From: Pseudomonadota bacterium
GTDB taxonomy: Bacteria > Pseudomonadota > Alphaproteobacteria > Acetobacterales > Acetobacteraceae
Assembly (NCBI GenBank): GCA_021805545.1
Contig: JAJZFB010000031.1
Location: 1-64,000 of the forward strand
Direction: 5' to 3'
DNA length: 64,000 nt
Shown: piece after piece, positions 12,083 to 64,000 of the stretch
Position numbering within the stretch: the stretch's first letter is position 1
Layout of the letters: the number at the start of each line of letters is the position of its first letter
Notes under the pieces: model-generated
The model's input: only the letters and a program-made list of their open reading frames with translations
Database searches by the model: none
What the model was told of the DNA's origin: nothing
Translations under genes and position numbers: made by a program

Positions 12083-14944
12083 TTATACACTAAGGGCCTT
12101 GTCAACCAAGGCGGCCTGCTCGGCCGCATGCACCTTGGCCAGGCCCGTGGCGGGCGAAGCCGCGGCGGCACGGCCAACATAAACCGGCCGTTTGGCAACA
12201 TTGCCAATCAGCCCAAGCACATGCTCCAGCCTGCGGTCCAGAAAGTGCCATGCGCCCATATTTTCTGGCTCTTCCTGGCACCATATCACTTCAGCGCCCA
12301 CGTAAGGCTCCAAAACCGCCTTAAGCGCGCGCACCGGGAACGGATAGAATTGCTCCAGGCGGATAATGGCAACATCGTTGATGCCCCGCTCGCGGCGCTC
12401 GGCCAGCAAATCGTAATAAACCTTGCCCGAGCACAGCACGACGCGGCGCACATGGCCGGGCGGCACCAGCTCATCCATCTCGGGGTACACAAATTTATAG
12501 CTCGAGCCTTCGGCCATCTCGCCCAGCTCTGAAACACAGAGCTTGTGGCGCAGCAGCGATTTTGGCGTCATCAGAATCAGCGGCTTGCGGAAATTGCGCT
12601 TCAACTGGCGGCGCAGGGCGTGGAAATAATTCGCCGGCGTCGAAATATTGCACACATTCATGTTGTGCTCGGCGCAAAGCTGCAAATAACGCTCCAGCCG
12701 CGCAGAGCTATGCTCCGGCCCCTGGCCTTCATGACCATGCGGCAGCAGCATCACCAGGCCGCACATACGCAGCCATTTGGTTTCGCCCGAGGCAATGAAC
12801 TGGTCGATGATAACCTGCGCGCCATTGGCGAAATCGCCGAACTGGCCTTCCCACAGCACCAGTACGCTGGGGTCCGCCAGGGTGTAGCCATATTCAAAGC
12901 CCAGCACACCGGCTTCTGAAAGCAGGGAGTTGAAAATCTCGATCGGCGCCTGCCCGGAACGGATATTATTGAGCGGCGTGTACTCGTGCTGGTTGGTCTG
13001 GTCGACAAGCACGGCATGGCGCTGCGAGAATGTGCCGCGCTGGCAATCCTCGCCCGAAAGGCGCACGCGGCTGCCATCGAGCAGCAGCGTGCCAAAGGCC
13101 AGCGCCTCGGCGGTGGCCCAGTCAATCCCCGCGCCAGTCTCCATCATCTGCTTCTTGGCTTCAAGCTGGCGGGCAATCTTGGGGTTTAGGTCGAAATTCT
13201 GCGGCGGGGTGGAAATAGCCACCCCCACCTCGCGCAACTGCGCCAGCGGGGCAAAGGTTTCCTCATCGCGAAAATCCGCCTCGCTGCCGCCCTGGCTCAA
13301 GCCCGCCCAATGGCCTTCCAGCCAATCGGCCTTGTTCACCTTGTAGTCCTGCGCGCCTTCGTAAGCGGCTTCCAGCGTCTGGTTATATTCATCCAGCATC
13401 GCCTTGGCCTCGGCCGCCGGAACAGAACCTTCCTTCTCCAGCCGTTCCGCGTACAAATTGCGGGTGGTCTTCAGGCCACGAATGGCCTTGTACATAATCG
13501 GCTGTGTAAACGCCGGCTCGTCATTCTCGTTATGGCCATGGCGGCGGTAGCACACCAGGTCAATCACCACATCGGTGGCAAACTCGTTACGGAACTCAGC
13601 GGCCAGACGGGCGGCGAACACCACGGCTTCAGGATTATCGCCATTCACATGCAAAATCGGCGCCTGCACGGCCTTCGCCACATCGGTGCAATACATGCCA
13701 GAAAATGCATGGGCCGGAACGGTGGTGAACCCGATCTGGTTATTCACGACCAGATGAATGGAGCCGCCCGTGCGGTAGCCAATAAGCTGGCTCATCGCCA
13801 GGGTTTCATACACCAGCCCCTGGCCGGCAAAGGCGGCATCGCCATGCATCATAATGGCCATGGCCGAGCGGCGGGTCTTGTCGCCCGTCATATCCAGCCG
13901 GGCACGTATCTTGCCCACCACCACAGGGTCCACCGCCTCAAGATGCGAGGGGTTGGGCTGCAGCGAGAGATGCACCTTGTTGCCGTTGATGATGAGGTCG
14001 GTGGATGTGCCCAGATGGTACTTCACGTCGCCAGAGCCTTGCACATCCTCGGGCTTGGCCGAGGCCCCGCCAAATTCCGAGAACAAGGCCACAAGCGGCT
14101 TCTTGACGATATTCACCAGCGTGTTCAGGCGCCCGCGATGCGGCATGCCGATGGCAATCTCCCGCACCCCGCCATTGGCCGCGGCCTCGATGATGGCGTG
14201 CAGCGCCGGAATGGTGCTCTCGCCGCCCTCAAGCCCGAAGCGTTTGGTGCCAACAAAGCGCTTCTGGCAGAAATTCTCGAAACTGTCCGCCTCGGTCAAC
14301 TGGCGCAGAATCTTCGCCTTGCTCTTATTATCGAATTCGTTAAGCCAGGGCGCACCTTCGATCCGTTTCTGGATCCAGGCCTTCTGGTGCGGGTCCTGGA
14401 TATGCATGAATTCCACGCCGATGGCGCCGCAATAGCTCTTGCGCAGTTCCGCCATAATCTGGCGCATCGTCGTGGTCTCAAACCCCAGCACACGGTCCAG
14501 GAAGATGGGGCGGTCAAAATCGGCCGCCTCCACAAAACCGTAAGTGGCGGGGTCCAGCTCCTCATGGTGGCTGGGGCGCTTCAGGCCCAGCGGGTCGAGC
14601 TGCGCCTCCAAATGCCCCCGTACCCGGTAGGCGCGAATAATCATGAGCGCGCGGATGGAATCCAGCGTCGCGGCCCGCATTTCGGCGGTGGACATGCTGG
14701 GCTTGGCGGCCTGGCGCGGCGCCGCCTCGGCGGTGACGGTGTCAAACACCGAGGGGCGGGGCGCCCAGGACGCGCCGCTGGCATCGGTGAGAACCGCGCG
14801 CTCCTCGTCATCCAGGGCCGCGAACAGGGCCGCGAAATCGGGGTCAACCGTGTCCGGCGCCTCGACCCATTTGGCATAAAGCTGCGCAATGAACTGGGCG
14901 TTGGCGCCGTTCATGGCGGTTGCAAGAATATCTACACCAGCCAT
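12083..14944 (-). CDS. sucA: 2-oxoglutarate dehydrogenase E1
   Basis: A thiamine-diphosphate enzyme of 953 residues that decarboxylates 2-oxoglutarate. Motifs include PHRGRLNTLVNI, HGDAAFAGQG, the ThDP site GDNPEAVVFAARL followed by YRRHGHNENDEP, and the C-terminal LPHGHEGQGPEHSS. ATG 14944 is preferred: GAAGGA precedes it and the family N-terminus starts there; an in-frame ATG at 14986 would add 14 residues. Order sucC-sucD-sucA-sucB is typical of alphaproteobacteria. A 245-bp gap separates it from sucD. Confidence 0.95.
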   Translation of the reverse strand: MAGVDILATAMNGANAQFIAQLYAKWVEAPDTVDPDFAALFAALDDEERAVLTDASGASWAPRPSVFDTVTAEAAPRQAAKPSMSTAEMRAATLDSIRALMIIRAYRVRGHLEAQLDPLGLKRPSHHEELDPATYGFVEAADFDRPIFLDRVLGFETTTMRQIMAELRKSYCGAIGVEFMHIQDPHQKAWIQKRIEGAPWLNEFDNKSKAKILRQLTEADSFENFCQKRFVGTKRFGLEGGESTIPALHAIIEAAANGGVREIAIGMPHRGRLNTLVNIVKKPLVALFSEFGGASAKPEDVQGSGDVKYHLGTSTDLIINGNKVHLSLQPNPSHLEAVDPVVVGKIRARLDMTGDKTRRSAMAIMMHGDAAFAGQGLVYETLAMSQLIGYRTGGSIHLVVNNQIGFTTVPAHAFSGMYCTDVAKAVQAPILHVNGDNPEAVVFAARLAAEFRNEFATDVVIDLVCYRRHGHNENDEPAFTQPIMYKAIRGLKTTRNLYAERLEKEGSVPAAEAKAMLDEYNQTLEAAYEGAQDYKVNKADWLEGHWAGLSQGGSEADFRDEETFAPLAQLREVGVAISTPPQNFDLNPKIARQLEAKKQMMETGAGIDWATAEALAFGTLLLDGSRVRLSGEDCQRGTFSQRHAVLVDQTNQHEYTPLNNIRSGQAPIEIFNSLLSEAGVLGFEYGYTLADPSVLVLWEGQFGDFANGAQVIIDQFIASGETKWLRMCGLVMLLPHGHEGQGPEHSSARLERYLQLCAEHNMNVCNISTPANYFHALRRQLKRNFRKPLILMTPKSLLRHKLCVSELGEMAEGSSYKFVYPEMDELVPPGHVRRVVLCSGKVYYDLLAERRERGINDVAIIRLEQFYPFPVRALKAVLEPYVGAEVIWCQEEPENMGAWHFLDRRLEHVLGLIGNVAKRPVYVGRAAAASPATGLAKVHAAEQAALVDKALSV

Positions 14945-15075
14945 ACCGATACCTGTTCCTTCAAGCTTTCCTTCAAGCCGCATCACAATCCGCCCATCAC
15001 AGGCGGCGGACAGGAGGACACGTCACATACGCAGCGCGCAAACGCAACCCGCACGCGCAACGGAACTCCGCCCCG

Positions 15076-58995: not shown

Positions 58996-60069
58996 TTATT
59001 GTTTCGCAGCCGTCCATATGGCGTTGAACAGCTTGAGCTTGGCGCCCGCCAGCGGCGGCAGGAAGTGCAGCAGCTTGAAGTCGGCAGGTGTCGGCGACAC
59101 CAGCTCGGTCTTCAGGCTGGGGTCCAGCATTGGCTGCGCGGCGGCGTTGGGGCTGCTATACGCGTTGTAGTTGGACAGCGCGGCCCCTTCCTTGGCGTTC
59201 AGGATGAAGTTGATGAATTCCAGGCCCAGCTTGGGGTTGGGCGCATGGGCGGGAATTGCCATGGTATCCACCCAGATTTCCGTGCCTTCCTTGGGCAGGT
59301 AGAAGCCAATATCCTTGCCGGAGCCATCGGCGTAGCTGGCGGCGACATCGCCATTGAACACCATGCCGGCGGAATTGACCTTGGCCTTCAACTGGTCGCG
59401 CTCAGGCAGGCCATCGACGAAACCAGCGAAGTTCTTGCGCTTGCGGGTTTCCTGGATCAGCTTGGCCGCGGCCAGCCAGTCGGCCTTGGTGTCGCAGGCA
59501 AACCCGTAGCCCAGATAGGCGCAGGCGGCGCCAATCGTATCCTGCCCGCTGCCGCTCATCAGTGTGAACGGATAGGTGGGGTTAATTTTGGGGTTGAACA
59601 GCAGGCCCCAGCTATGCACGGGATCCTTGATCTGGTCCTTCAGATAGCCAATGCCCGTGGTGCCCCATTGGTAGGGGATGGAGTATTTATCGCCCGGATC
59701 ATAGGTGGGGTTCTGGAACTTCACAGCCAGATTCTTGAAATTCGGAATCGCGCTACGGTCGAGCGGCTGGATCAGCCCTTCCGCCACCAGGCGGGCCACA
59801 TAGTAGCTGGACGGCACAACCACATCATATTGCGAATCAGCACCAGCTTTCAGCTTGGCTTCCATTTCGGAGTTCGAATCATAATCGGTTTCGACCACCT
59901 TGCAGCCGCACTGTTTTTCAAACGTCTTCACCATGGCGGGGTCGATGTAGTCGGACCAGGTGAACAGGTTGAGCGTTGGCTCGGCGGCGCGGGCGGGCGG
60001 CGGCAGCGCAAAGGCCCCAAGGATGGCGGCGCAACCCGCGCCGAGCAAAAATGATTTTAGCTTGGTCAT
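58996..60069 (-). CDS. potF: Periplasmic putrescine/spermidine-binding protein
   Basis: This 357-residue receptor has a signal peptide (SFLLGAGCAAILGAFALPP) and PotD/PotF-family motifs: LNLFTWSDYIDPAMV, ETDYDSNSEMEAKL, YDVVVPSSYYVARL, SIPYQWGTTGIGY. It hands polyamine to the ABC permease. ATG 60069 follows AGAGGAG. Putrescine preference is inferred from puuA and PuuR nearby. Confidence 0.9.
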   Translation of the reverse strand: MTKLKSFLLGAGCAAILGAFALPPPARAAEPTLNLFTWSDYIDPAMVKTFEKQCGCKVVETDYDSNSEMEAKLKAGADSQYDVVVPSSYYVARLVAEGLIQPLDRSAIPNFKNLAVKFQNPTYDPGDKYSIPYQWGTTGIGYLKDQIKDPVHSWGLLFNPKINPTYPFTLMSGSGQDTIGAACAYLGYGFACDTKADWLAAAKLIQETRKRKNFAGFVDGLPERDQLKAKVNSAGMVFNGDVAASYADGSGKDIGFYLPKEGTEIWVDTMAIPAHAPNPKLGLEFINFILNAKEGAALSNYNAYSSPNAAAQPMLDPSLKTELVSPTPADFKLLHFLPPLAGAKLKLFNAIWTAAKQ

Positions 60070-60086
60070 GAATTTCTCCTCTGGTG

Positions 60087-60929
60087 TTAAGCAACAGCCG
60101 GAATCTGGCGGCTGCGTTGTTGTTGGTGGCGGGTAACAAAGTAGTAGAGCAAGGCAACGCCAATAACAGTGGCGATCATAAGGCTGCCAAGGGCGTTGAT
60201 CTCAGGCGAAGACCCTTTGCGCGCGATGGCGCTGTAGATGTAGATGGGCAGGGTAACACTGCCCGGGCCGGCGGTGAAGAAGCTGATGGTGAAGTCGTCG
60301 ATGGACAAGGTGATGGCAAGCAGGAAACCGCCGATCAGTGCCGGGCGGACGACCGGAATGGTAAGATAGAGAAAGGATTTGAGCGGGTTGGCGTAAAGGT
60401 CCTGCGACGCCTCGAACAAATTAGGGTCCAACCCGGTAAGGCGCGCATAGACCACCAGCGCCACGTAAGGCGACTGGAAGGTGACATGGGCAATACCCAT
60501 GGTGAGCAGCCCGGCGGAGAGCAGGCCGGTATATTCATGTACAAGGTTGAAGAAAATCAGCTCGGAAATGCCAAAAACCAGGCTGGGCATGATGATGGGC
60601 ATATAGATGATGAGGCTGGGCAGCGTGCCTGCCCAGAAACCGCCGCCCGTGGCGGGGCGGAACCGGTTGAGGCCAAACCCCATGAGCGTGCCAAGCGCCG
60701 TGCCCAGAATCGCTGAGCCGAACGCCAGGGTGATGGAACGCCGCAATGCCGCCAGCACCAGGGGGTCGTTGAACAACGCCCCATACGCCGCGGCATTGAT
60801 GCCCGGATGGTGCAGCGACGGGGCAAACGAGAAAATGGCGATGACGGAAAGCGGCAGGTAAAGCAACGCATATACGGGCAGGCTGAGACCAAACAGGCCG
60901 CGCCTGATGCCGCGGGGGATGTTGCTCAC
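60087..60929 (-). CDS. potI: Polyamine ABC transporter permease, second subunit
   Basis: This 280-residue protein has six hydrophobic segments and the permease coupling motif near residue 185 (FEASQDLYANPLKSF). It pairs with the permease encoded upstream. Its GTG start overlaps the stop of that gene (GTGA). Confidence 0.88.
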   Translation of the reverse strand: MSNIPRGIRRGLFGLSLPVYALLYLPLSVIAIFSFAPSLHHPGINAAAYGALFNDPLVLAALRRSITLAFGSAILGTALGTLMGFGLNRFRPATGGGFWAGTLPSLIIYMPIIMPSLVFGISELIFFNLVHEYTGLLSAGLLTMGIAHVTFQSPYVALVVYARLTGLDPNLFEASQDLYANPLKSFLYLTIPVVRPALIGGFLLAITLSIDDFTISFFTAGPGSVTLPIYIYSAIARKGSSPEINALGSLMIATVIGVALLYYFVTRHQQQRSRQIPAVA

Positions 60930-61831
60930 AGCATCGCCCCTTCACCCCCGCCCAGCCTTTGCGTCAGGCGGCGGAAAACAATAAGGCCAACGCAGGTAAA
61001 AACCAGCATGATGATGGTCAGCGCCGCGCCATAGGGCCAATCGGGCGAGAAGGTGAACTGGCTGGCAATGAGCGAGCCGAGCATCATCGCCTTGTCGCCC
61101 CCCAGAAGCTGCGGCACCACGTAGTCGCCAAACGCGGGAATGCCGACCAGGATGATGCCGGAAAGCAGCCCCGGCACGGTTTGCGGAAACACGGCGTTGA
61201 AAAACAGTTTCGGGCCGGATGCGTATAAATCGCGCCCGGCTTCCACCAGGGTCCAGTCCAGCTTTTCCACGGCGGCATAAAGCGGCACCACCATATAGGG
61301 CAGGTAGTTATAGGTAAGCCCTATAAACACCGCGAAATTCCCCGGCATGAGGCCAAGATGCGGCGGAATGAACCCCAGCCACTGGGCCAGATGCGAGACC
61401 GGCGCGAAAGGGTTGAGCAACTGCATCCAGGCATAGGTGCGCACCACCTGGTTGGTCCAGGAAGGCACAATGGCAAACAGGAGCAGCACGGGCCGCATAT
61501 TGGCCGGGCGCGAAACAATAAAGAATACCAGCGGATAGGCCAGCAAAATGGTCATGGTGGTGGCAATGCCCGCCTGTAGCAGCGAGCGCGCCAGCACCGT
61601 GAAATTGGCGCCGGACCACCCTAAAATGCCAAAACCCGCCACTTGCGAAAAAGAGGAAAGGGACAGGGGCAATACCGGCGAGCCGAAATCGCTGTTCGTG
61701 AAAAACGCGATACCGAGCATGATCCCGCTGGGAAACAGCAGAAACAATATAATCCAGAACAGCCCCGGCCCGGAGGTGAGCCAAAGCCGCCAGGCGCGGC
61801 TGCGCCCCTCACGCTGCGTCATGGTGCTCAT
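60926..61831 (-). CDS. potH: Polyamine ABC transporter permease, first subunit
   Basis: This 301-residue permease has six hydrophobic segments, the family's early WLTSGPGLFWIILFLLFPSG, and the coupling loop VEAGRDLYASGPKLFF. ATG 61831 overlaps the potA stop (TGATG); a GTG at 61834 is also in frame. Confidence 0.88.
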   Translation of the reverse strand: MSTMTQREGRSRAWRLWLTSGPGLFWIILFLLFPSGIMLGIAFFTNSDFGSPVLPLSLSSFSQVAGFGILGWSGANFTVLARSLLQAGIATTMTILLAYPLVFFIVSRPANMRPVLLLFAIVPSWTNQVVRTYAWMQLLNPFAPVSHLAQWLGFIPPHLGLMPGNFAVFIGLTYNYLPYMVVPLYAAVEKLDWTLVEAGRDLYASGPKLFFNAVFPQTVPGLLSGIILVGIPAFGDYVVPQLLGGDKAMMLGSLIASQFTFSPDWPYGAALTIIMLVFTCVGLIVFRRLTQRLGGGEGAML

Positions 61832-62916
61832 CACGCCTCCACCAGCATGATGTTTTCGGGCTTCAACTCCACCGCCACGGCCTCGCCCGGGCGCCAGCTA
61901 CGTTCGGCGGCCTGGTTGTTGGTATCGTAGGCGGTAACAAATTCGCCGCAATGCAGCTCAATCCGGTATTGGGTCGAGGCACCCATGTAGATTGCCTCGC
62001 AGATTTTACCCAAGAACATATTGGGCCGGCCGGCCGCGAAGGCGCTGTCGCTGTAAAGCCAGATTTTCTCGGGCCGTATCATCGCCATGCCGGGGCCGGC
62101 CAGGGTTTCGCCAATATTCAGCACGCCAATCGCGGTGCGCGCCTCGTGCGCGGAAACCGGCTCAAACGCCCAGATATTCGACAGGCCGAGAAACTCCGCG
62201 ACGAACACGTTTTTCGGCTTCTCATATACATCCAGTACCGGGCCAACCTGCTGGATGCGCCCTTTGCTCATCACCGCGATGCGGTCGGACATCACCAGCG
62301 CCTCGTGCTGGTCGTGCGTAACAAACACAAAAGTCATGCCCAGGCGCTTCTGCATTCGCAAAAGCTCAATCTGCAATTCCGCGCGCAATTTGGCGTCCAG
62401 CGCCGAGAGCGGCTCGTCCAGCAGCACCACTTCCGGCTCGTTCACCAAGGCGCGGGCCAGGGCCACGCGCTGGCGCTGCCCGCCAGAAAGCTGGGCGGCG
62501 GCGCGTGTGGCGAATGGCCCGATCTGCATCAGCTCCATAATGGCATCGACGCGCTTTTTGCGCGCCGCCGCCTTCACGCCCTGCATTTTCAACCCGAAGC
62601 CGATATTCTGCTCCACATTAAGGTGCGGAAACAGCGCGTAGGATTGAAAAACCGTGTTGACCGCGCGCTTATGCGCGGGAACCCCCTGCATTTCGCGCCC
62701 CGAGATGACAATTTGCCCCGCATCCGGCGTTTCAAACCCCGCGATCATGCGCAAAAGCGTGGTTTTACCACAGCCGGAAGGGCCAAGCAGGGTAAAAAAT
62801 TCTCCGGGATGTATTTCAAGACCAATATGATCGACCGCGGGTATGGTGCCCGCGAAAATACGGGTTATACCCGTAAGTGAGATGGCGCCGCGCTTGGCGG
62901 CCATGGCGGCGCTCAT
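61831..62916 (-). CDS. potA: Polyamine ABC transporter ATP-binding protein
   Basis: This 361-residue ATPase has Walker A GPSGCGKTT, Q-loop, signature LSGGQRQRVALARAL, Walker B VVLLDEPLSALD, switch His in FVTHDQHEA and a C-terminal TOBE domain. ATG 62916 follows GGAGG and lies inside a 35-bp tandem repeat that duplicates this ribosome site and start. First full gene of the putrescine operon, divergent from puuR. Confidence 0.93.
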   Translation of the reverse strand: MSAAMAAKRGAISLTGITRIFAGTIPAVDHIGLEIHPGEFFTLLGPSGCGKTTLLRMIAGFETPDAGQIVISGREMQGVPAHKRAVNTVFQSYALFPHLNVEQNIGFGLKMQGVKAAARKKRVDAIMELMQIGPFATRAAAQLSGGQRQRVALARALVNEPEVVLLDEPLSALDAKLRAELQIELLRMQKRLGMTFVFVTHDQHEALVMSDRIAVMSKGRIQQVGPVLDVYEKPKNVFVAEFLGLSNIWAFEPVSAHEARTAIGVLNIGETLAGPGMAMIRPEKIWLYSDSAFAAGRPNMFLGKICEAIYMGASTQYRIELHCGEFVTAYDTNNQAAERSWRPGEAVAVELKPENIMLVEA

Positions 62917-62951
62917 GCGGCGCCTCCGTCAACGATTACAGAGGCGCTCAT
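62913..62951 (-). CDS. Upstream mini-ORF 2 of potA, 12 codons
   Basis: ATG 62951, preceded by GGAGG at ideal spacing, encodes MSASVIVDGGAA and stops at a TGA that overlaps the potA ATG (ATGA). Ribosomes finishing it would restart on potA. It arises from a 35-bp tandem duplication. Whether the peptide is made or matters is unknown. Confidence 0.45.
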   Translation of the reverse strand: MSASVIVDGGAA

Positions 62952-62986
62952 GCGGCGCCTCCGTCAAGGATTACAGAGGCGCTCAC
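62948..62986 (-). CDS. Upstream mini-ORF 1 of potA, 12 codons
   Basis: GTG 62986, also after GGAGG, encodes MSASVILDGGAA and ends with a TGA overlapping the ATG of mini-ORF 2. It differs from mini-ORF 2 at one residue (Leu for Val). The two mini-ORFs and potA thus form a chain of ATGA junctions. Confidence 0.42.
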   Translation of the reverse strand: MSASVILDGGAA

Positions 62987-63209
62987 GGGGCGCCTCCATG
63001 AAGGAAGGAGAGGTTAGGCTTAGGCGGCTTTGCTATCCACAGCACGCAAATCCCCGTTATGGTTTGGGTAGGGTTATTTGTTGCCCAACCAACCATGGCC
63101 GTCAAGAATAATTAGTTTGATTTTGCCGTGAGCATGTATTTCTTTACAAGACTCGCATCAAAGCCCATGATTTCGTCAATAATCCTAAACGTTTGGAAGC
63201 AAGGAGAAG

Positions 63210-63788
63210 ATGTCGGCAGCCCTGGAAACTGAAGCTGGCGCGGAGGATATTGGCACCAGGCTCAAGCTGGTCCGGCAGATTTTTGGCCTGACACAGCGCG
63301 AGCTGGCGCGCCGCGCGGGGGTGACGAACGGGGCGATCTCGCTCATCGAGCAGAACCGCGTCTCGCCCTCCATCTCTAGCCTGAAGAAGATTCTGGACGG
63401 CATTCCGCTCTCGCTGGCCGATTTCTTCACGCTCGATTTTTCGCCCTCGGATAACGTGTTTTTCGTGGAAAACGAGCTGACCGAAATTTCCTACGACCAT
63501 ACCATCTCCATGCGCATGGTGGGACGGCGGTTGCAGGACCGGGCGTTGCAGATGCTGCGCGAAACCTACCAGCCCGGGGCCGACACGGGCGATGCCATGC
63601 TGCGCCATGCCGGAGAGGAATGCGGCATCGTCGTTTCGGGCAGCATTACCATTACCGTGGGGGTACAGGAGCGCCAGCTCAACCCCGGCGATGCCTATTA
63701 TTTCCGTTCAGACATCCCGCACCGTTTCCGCAACCAGAGCAGCGAACCCTGCGTGCTCATCAGCGCCGTCTCCCCACCCTCGTTTTAA
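63210..63788 (+). CDS. puuR: PuuR-type XRE/cupin repressor
   Basis: This 192-residue regulator has an XRE helix-turn-helix (GLTQRELARRAGVTNGAISLIEQNRVSPSISSLKKIL) and a C-terminal cupin (GEECGIVVSGSITITVG, NPGDAYYFRSDIPHRFRN) that would sense putrescine. ATG 63210 follows AAGGAG. It is divergent from the potA operon, which it should repress. The stop is directly followed by a composite R1/P1 repeat. Confidence 0.92.
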   Translation: MSAALETEAGAEDIGTRLKLVRQIFGLTQRELARRAGVTNGAISLIEQNRVSPSISSLKKILDGIPLSLADFFTLDFSPSDNVFFVENELTEISYDHTISMRMVGRRLQDRALQMLRETYQPGADTGDAMLRHAGEECGIVVSGSITITVGVQERQLNPGDAYYFRSDIPHRFRNQSSEPCVLISAVSPPSF

Positions 63789-63897
63789 GCGCGATGATCT
63801 TATACCAACGGTCATGCTCAATGACCGTTGGTATAAGATGCGCTCGCTTTGCGAGCGCTTCGAAAGTCTGAACCGCGCTCTGCCTCATTGATTTAGA
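63789..63897 (+). repeat. R1 repeat interrupted by palindrome P1
   Basis: GCGCGATG, then the palindrome at 63797-63839, then ATGCGCTCGCTTTGCGAGCG, TTCGAAAGTCTGAACCGCGC and TCTGCCTCATTGATTTAGAG. Compared with the intact R1 at 27880, the palindrome replaces the ACTTGAG segment. It begins one base after the puuR stop. Confidence 0.8.
63797..63839. repeat. Palindromic element P1, 18-bp arms
   Basis: Arms ATCTTATACCAACGGTCA and TGACCGTTGGTATAAGAT are perfect and enclose TGCTCAA, the reverse complement of the loop of the 27731 copy. So the same element sits here in the opposite orientation. Confidence 0.85.
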
Positions 63898-64000
63898 GAC
63901 GGCTGTTTGCAAACGCTGCTCTGACGGCCGCCTGACGGTGCTTTTCTGCGCTCCGGTGCTCAAAAATCAGCGCCTCGGCTCTCCAGAGCGCGTTTTCAGA
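63893..64000 (-). CDS. C-terminal end of an unidentified gene, cut by the window edge
   Basis: The minus strand is open from the right edge for 35 codons, with charged and Ala-rich sequence (ALWRAEALIFEHR, QAAVRAAFANSRL) and a TAA stop at 63893-63895. The stop lies within the TGATTTAGAG end of the R1 repeat. I do not recognise the family; too little is visible. Confidence 0.35.
   Translation of the reverse strand, partial: SENALWRAEALIFEHRSAEKHRQAAVRAAFANSRL

Follow-up and report, generated by a model that had tools for sequence, protein, structure and literature searches.

What do the short reading frames in front of potA do? We consider it rather probable that potA in the 64,000-nt stretch of DNA analysed here (the window), which comes from an Acidocella-like bacterium, sits behind a leader that acts by reinitiation or RNA unfolding, largely independently of the peptide it encodes, and that this leader was stacked threefold by a lineage-specific duplication of the leader-potA junction. 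As judged from sequence, a single leader before potA is a feature of the whole clade, and we regard this as the more meaningful finding than the stack.

On the minus strand, three start codons succeed each other at a 35-nt period (GTG at 62986, ATG at 62951 and the potA ATG at 62916), and the array reads GTGAGCGCCTCTGTAATCCTTGACGGAGGCGCCGC / ATGAGCGCCTCTGTAATCGTTGACGGAGGCGCCGC / ATGAGCGCC and so on. Mini-ORF 1 (62948..62986, minus strand; GTG start, 12 codons, MSASVILDGGAA and stop), whose GTG is the counterpart of the potA start in a sister species, and mini-ORF 2 (62913..62951, minus strand; ATG start, 12 codons, MSASVIVDGGAA and stop) each terminate in a TGA that shares 4 nt with the next start. 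TRF delineated the tandem array at 62908..63005 (period 35, 2.8 copies, 92% matches, score 161). The sequence GGAGGCGCCGCATGAGCGCC, allowing up to 3 mismatches, has four sites in the window against an expected 0.06, three of them in the array, and the best ungapped self-match of the array scores 50.5 over 63 nt, far beyond chance. The original prediction had described a 35-bp tandem repeat, two 12-codon mini-ORFs chained by ATGA overlaps to potA, and their peptides (with GTG taken as Met); the repeat is borne out by all three measures, the chain lies on the minus strand as described, and the peptides are correct. The third copy is imperfect as a potA head: ATGAGCGCC is followed by GCCATGGCC, where the other copies and the sister read TCTGTAA. 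The array is known from a metagenome-type assembly, with one genome per species.

Where did the array come from? Relatives that bear names belong to Acidocella and, more distantly, to Acidiphilium. The closest ortholog, referred to as the sister, is L002 (record JAKBCX010000002.1, which also appears as L031); it has 94% PotA protein identity and is shorter by exactly 70 bp at the array, with gap-free alignment adjoining on both sides. The missing segment corresponds to 62901..62970 (minus strand; 2 x 35 bp, its placement inside the repeat being arbitrary), and the sister's potA begins where mini-ORF 1 does (GTGAGCGCCTCTGTAA, translated VSASVSAKRG). MSAS-type N-termini occur in the PotA proteins of relatives (MSASVP in L012, MSASQT in L004 and L015, VSASVS in the sister), which identifies the first half of the mini-ORFs as a potA head. 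Their second half is a leader-type tail ending in GGAA and stop; leader tails read NGGAA in the sister, SGGAA in L005 and HGGAP in the window. By sequence, the 35-bp unit is the tail of an older leader joined to the head of potA, so that each mini-ORF is a frame-coherent chimera; and since 35 equals 2 mod 3, each repeat forms a whole mini-cistron of its own, with its stop at the start codon that follows. Under identical scoring, a comparable repeat was found in none of the 35 other distinct orthologs (best 14.5 versus 50.5 in the window; the set comprises 36 distinct orthologs including the window, from two collections that share records). The original prediction had named relatives lacking such a repeat as the observation that would count against it, and as a feature common to relatives the mini-ORF pair has to be given up. 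The two extra copies are probably a recent, lineage-specific tandem duplication of the leader-potA junction. The alignment best places the insertion in the window's lineage; gain in the common ancestor followed by loss in the sister is possible and less simple. A dispersed-repeat origin was rejected, as a whole-genome search returned the array locus as the only strong match (the runner-up has an E of 0.02). The duplication, the chimeric anatomy of its unit and, in most orthologs, the conserved frame and stop position of the leader can all be read directly from the alignments.

The chain starts further upstream. A predicted older leader ORF, uORF0 (62983..63045, minus strand; GTG start, MLWIAKPPKPNLSFLHGGAP and stop), ends in a TGA that overlaps the ancestral potA start, GTG 62986. 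The original prediction was right that two mini-ORFs are stacked and overlooked GTG 63045, with which the chain truly begins one cistron earlier. This start lies in a conserved block, AACGGGGATTTGCGTGCTGTGG (63037..63058, minus strand), comprising an SD-like GGGG, the uORF0 start and uORF0 codons 2-3. The start motif AACGGGGATTTGC-GTG-CTG-TGG, which marks the start region of a leader that stops on the potA start, is present in 24 distinct Acidocella-type sequences including the window; L034, from the cultured A. facilis ATCC 35904, has a variant and a single leader. uORF0 and both mini-ORFs thus have the makeup of coupled leaders: they are short, preceded by an SD-like site, and stop on or next to the downstream start. 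Our initial reading of the block as an operator was replaced when a search for mini-ORFs in orthologs revealed it as the leader start region. A regulon for the block was rejected likewise, the genome containing one site at up to 3 mismatches.

Is the leader real? Starting from the motif GTG, frame 0 stops within -4 to +11 nt of the potA start in all 24 motif-bearing sequences (the window being measured to the ancestral start at 62986) and the other two frames in 0 of 48 cases, a test that is partly built in because the motif regex was written after the data were seen and the candidate potA start nearest the leader stop was used, that involves related orthologs and a potA frame unable to stop just past its own start, and in which the shuffle probability of such a stop at the observed length is substantial (mean 0.38). 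Leader-to-potA distances are 53, 59, 62, 65 or 68 nt, all 2 mod 3, in 20 of the 24; the remaining four measure 61, 64, 91 and 91 nt, with stops still close to the potA start. We also applied a uniform rule, demanding an SD-like site, 8-40 codons and a stop at +1 or -2 of an in-frame ATG or GTG. With loci grouped manually by identity, kinship and organism names, and 32 of 113 left out (30 duplicates, 2 lacking the N-terminus), such a leader is present in 19 of the 27 Acidocella-type orthologs (the window qualifies via mini-ORF 2, and leaving it out gives 18 of 26), in 7 of 11 Acidiphilium-type orthologs and in none of the 43 distant homologs; 13 of these homologs instead overlap a long frame lying upstream. 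Across 464 kb of this genome, the same rule picks out 11 ORFs, potA included, from the 372 that reach 100 aa, or 8 from the 291 that reach 200 aa; a narrower rule picks out 2 of 405.

Leader frame and stop position are thus kept across relatives under a strict rule, with exceptions. Among Acidocella-type orthologs, the leader stop is shifted in L018 (+11), L022 (-4), L023 (+5) and L025 (-4), and L006 and L013 possess a leader whose frame is open further upstream, so that the rule scores it as long. L016 and L039 have no leader; the neighbourhood differs, yet the type of overlap recurs, with potA meeting a long upstream frame at TGATG or ATGA. By eye, this frame looks like the tail of a putative cupin-like gene. 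Acidiphilium-type leaders have an ATG start and a GGGAG-type SD; here, the stop lies at +5 in L059 and at -2 in L143, where the frame is open further upstream, L062 shows no leader under the rule, L063 has none, and L061 is doubtful though counted among the seven. L063 carries a leader-like start, GGGGAGATTGG-ATGCGTTCATCG, which resembles the leader start of L060 and is in frame with potA, as if fused. One distant homolog, L067, has a 9-codon ORF stopping at +1, with no SD under the uniform rule.

Is the encoded peptide conserved? An alignment of upstream regions had been put forward as a check for a peptide conserved with synonymous changes; run on the leader, it returned a poorly conserved peptide, with a pooled pS of 0.30, pN of 0.27 and ratio of 0.90 over 23 pairs (equal length, at most 40% difference) that are non-independent, with 15 falling inside the group L007, L008, L010, L011, L013 and L014, and in many cases near saturation. 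The leader peptides align well only at codons 1-3. In the four closest pairs, pN/pS is about 0.3-0.75, with 2-4 changes each, and this lower ratio leaves some constraint on the peptide possible. The near-equality of pN and pS argues against an arrest peptide without excluding one, and the conserved peptide expected of a sensory leader of this kind was not found at the pooled ratio. A start region, frame and stop that are kept while the peptide varies fit a leader valued for translation over peptide; from these alignments, the leader seems to be kept for being translated and not for its product. Of the stacked reinitiation leader originally proposed, the stop-start architecture stands, and a single leader ORF is conserved in relatives; the mini-ORFs themselves are a lineage-specific duplication.

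All three junctions in the window are predicted to fold as GC-rich hairpins. The inverted repeat GAGGCGC-CCCGTGA-GCGCCTC (62976..62996, minus strand; 7/7 pairs) has its loop at the mini-ORF 1 start and an arm that includes the SD, with a predicted energy of -14.4 kcal/mol when folded alone; GAGGCGC-CGCATGA-GCGCCTC (62941..62961, minus strand; 7/7 pairs, -16.4 kcal/mol in isolation) contains the mini-ORF 2 start, and an imperfect third repeat (62906..62926, minus strand; 6/7 pairs, -12.8 kcal/mol in isolation) the potA start. The predicted fold of the array region is more stable than 200 of 200 shuffles (z -4.59). Paired in register, the hairpin reaches 7/7 in the sister, 6 in L023 and 1-5 in the remaining orthologs; a perfect hairpin is therefore common only to the window and its sister, and the hairpin is not what the orthologs conserve.

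By prediction, opening the SD and start (35-nt flanks) costs on average 12.1 kcal/mol at potA and 7.2 at uORF0, and potA exceeds uORF0 in 21 of 23 orthologs (of 24, L023, which contains N, was left out of the energies). The background for this genome is 6.8 kcal/mol over 98 SD-bearing starts, which at a GC of 0.57 are not GC-matched; 32 GC-matched starts (GC at least 0.60) average 8.8 kcal/mol (sd 4.2), and after GC regression the potA excess is about 3.9 kcal/mol against a background residual sd of 3.1. Several potA starts lie at or below the ordinary opening cost (L011, L014). Opening energies also vary with the length of the stretch folded, the potA starts of window and sister costing 19.5 and 19.4 kcal/mol with 35-nt flanks and 11.6 and 20.0 with 90-nt flanks. 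The models thus place potA starts in somewhat stronger structure than other starts, also when adjusted for GC, the excess being moderate. In silico trimming of the upstream sequence left the potA start closed (10.9-16.3 kcal/mol with 0-70 nt kept); as trimming was without effect, the unfolding idea rests on the comparison with other starts.

The genes concerned point to polyamine uptake. The potA-type ABC transporter ATPase (61831..62916, minus strand; start ATG 62916), whose best models are PotA at scores below curated cut-offs, is followed by a PotB/PotH-type permease (60926..61834, minus strand) and a PotC/PotI-type permease (60087..60929, minus strand), both likewise scoring below curated cut-offs. 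Each permease gene joins its predecessor through a GTGA overlap, so that potA/potH and potH/potI also overlap by 4 nt, which the original prediction did not include. Further downstream lie a PotD/F-type protein and a member of the glutamine synthetase family with a further match to gamma-glutamylputrescine synthetase, with model scores below curated cut-offs for both. On the other side, a PuuR-like regulator (63210-63788, profile match below the curated cut-off) is encoded divergently. A candidate promoter (63076..63105, minus strand) consists of TTGACG (63105-63100) and, 18 nt on, ACAAAT (63081-63076). TTGACG is exact in 21 of 24 aligned upstream regions and is possibly the -35 box of the operon promoter, and ACAAAT aligns with GAGACT- or CACACT-like hexamers in many relatives; a consensus promoter scan listed no promoter at 63076..63105. 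Upstream of the leader, the window (63100-63113, minus strand) shares a conserved AATTATTCTTGACG-like sequence with L002-L025. No terminator-like site was seen in 62850-63210, and an Rfam search over 60000-64000 gave three matches, all below gathering score; the signs of a known riboswitch or attenuator, a family match at gathering score or a terminator, were thus not found here.

How else could these observations be explained? That the extra cistrons are a neutral duplication, tolerated because each copy brings its own SD and start and having no effect worth naming, is a serious possibility, to which we give a little less than an even chance. The array is restricted to one lineage, its copies are near-identical, nothing comparable occurs in the 35 other orthologs, and a suitable period would arise about once in three times by chance, making selection unnecessary. 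Set against this, two added stop-start steps and repeated hairpins with a fold that none of the 200 shuffles matched might well alter translation. Neutrality would concern the extra copies and is compatible with uORF0 coupling potA. It is unlikely, in our view, that the conserved block acts as an operator or promoter element alone and the open leader frame is coincidental. DNA conservation is indeed strongest around the start codon while the peptide varies, and an open frame of such length is not rare by chance, given the mean shuffle probability of 0.38; yet in 24/24 cases the frame-0 stop lies close to the potA start, versus 0/48 for the other frames (with the caveats given), most length changes keep the frame, and Acidiphilium-type orthologs retain a leader with another start codon, ATG, and a GGGAG-type SD.

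Might the repeat be read as DNA? An array of operators, the duplication having turned a single regulator site, GAGGCGC-N7-GCGCCTC, into three, agrees with the pairing seen (7/7 in the sister and in copies one and two, 6/7 in copy three), but the other 22 motif-bearing orthologs have 1-5 pairs (6 in L023) while the leader frame persists, and the genome lacks a second strong match; we hold it to be very unlikely. Least probable, and to our minds hardly credible, is the sensing of putrescine by a nascent leader or mini-ORF peptide that stalls ribosomes. The operon context is polyamine transport, and leader control of polyamine genes is known elsewhere, for example at Salmonella speF. However, the peptide is poorly conserved past codons 1-3, the other 35 orthologs showed no mini-ORF peptide ahead of potA, and neither an RNA family at gathering score nor a terminator-like site is at hand. 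We found nothing in support of the putrescine-sensing leader suggested originally; control by putrescine would more simply be expected from the adjoining PuuR-like regulator.

How, then, might the leader work by translation? In the reading we prefer, ribosomes would load at the uORF0 start and translate through the structure that surrounds the SD and start codon of potA; having terminated at the NTGA or TGATG junction, they would then reinitiate on potA or open the site for others. The repeat unit carries all that a further step should need, namely the SD-containing leader tail, the NTGA at which stop and start overlap, and the opening codons of potA, and in the window's species two relay steps, each with its own GGAGG, would have been added ahead of potA. 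Judging from this arrangement, a relay of three tiny ORFs probably hands ribosomes to potA; translation of the ORFs, their coupling, the site of transcript start and the effect of the extra copies on PotA output are what we infer. Going further, PotA synthesis could be tied to the efficiency of reinitiation and so respond to polyamines with no specific peptide, making the 35-bp array an evolvable copy-number dial for polyamine uptake, a speculation that we think improbable. If true, changes in the number of junction copies would change the gain of reinitiation-based control.

The stop-start architecture as such is already known; what is new is the stacking in series of units derived from the locus itself. 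Korolev et al. (2016; PMC4833913) describe leader ORFs as a ribosome 'antenna', proposed to enhance initiation at the following gene through reinitiation. The potA leader is similar in being a short ORF directly before a structural gene and in that it would need no special regulatory codons. In contrast, their set excluded overlapping leaders and had a peak spacing of 10-11 bp, whereas the potA leader stop overlaps (NTGA) or touches (TGATG) the start, and three leaders occur in series in one species, that of the window. Overlaps of the same ATGA and TGATG types were studied by Huber et al. (2019; PMC6728339), where 13 of the 14 overlapping gene pairs measured proved strictly coupled; the upstream partner there is a gene, and at potA it is a short ORF with no conserved product. 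Similar in form are the mycobacterial interspersed repetitive units (MIRUs), short repeats with an ORF that are inserted at start codons and coupled at a -4 nt spacing, according to a review (PMC12548453, citing Supply et al. 1997). In both cases, an ORF in the repeat overlaps the next gene by 4 nt, from which coupling would be inferred for the array. MIRUs, however, are dispersed and appear mobile, whereas the potA array sits at one locus and derives from the local leader-potA junction; because no dispersed copies were found in the genome, the array is not a MIRU. Engineered bicistronic designs (PMC5995908, PMC12548453) use a short leader cistron to deliver ribosomes and remove concern over repressive RNA structure, and the potA leader differs in being natural and serially repeated. 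Likewise, mgtQ (PMC8092293) is a small ORF that promotes mgtB translation in Salmonella; it too precedes a transporter gene with a structured translation start, but it is reported to depend on particular acidic codons, unlike the potA leader, which has no conserved peptide feature past codons 1-3.

In the part of the literature covered, itself weak evidence of absence, neither the stacked-junction route nor the potA leader of Acidocella and Acidiphilium was found described, and a word search of the main text of a Sinorhizobium Ribo-seq study (PMC10117765) returned no potA, putrescine or spermidine. Duplicating an NTGA junction at a period of 2 mod 3 would be a simple route to stacked leader cistrons, and the potA leader in Acidocella and Acidiphilium would be a clean system for telling reinitiation from RNA unfolding. 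Two minor observations concern other loci. One of the 11 ORFs that the uniform rule picks out in this genome is a long ORF in the window at 12086-14989 (minus strand), with an SD-bearing short ORF, VRVAFARCVCDVSSCPPPVMGGL and stop, ending on its candidate start. In addition, a 28-bp tandem repeat (3 copies, 91% matches) is found at L127:8941-9024, outside long ORFs and not at an ORF start.
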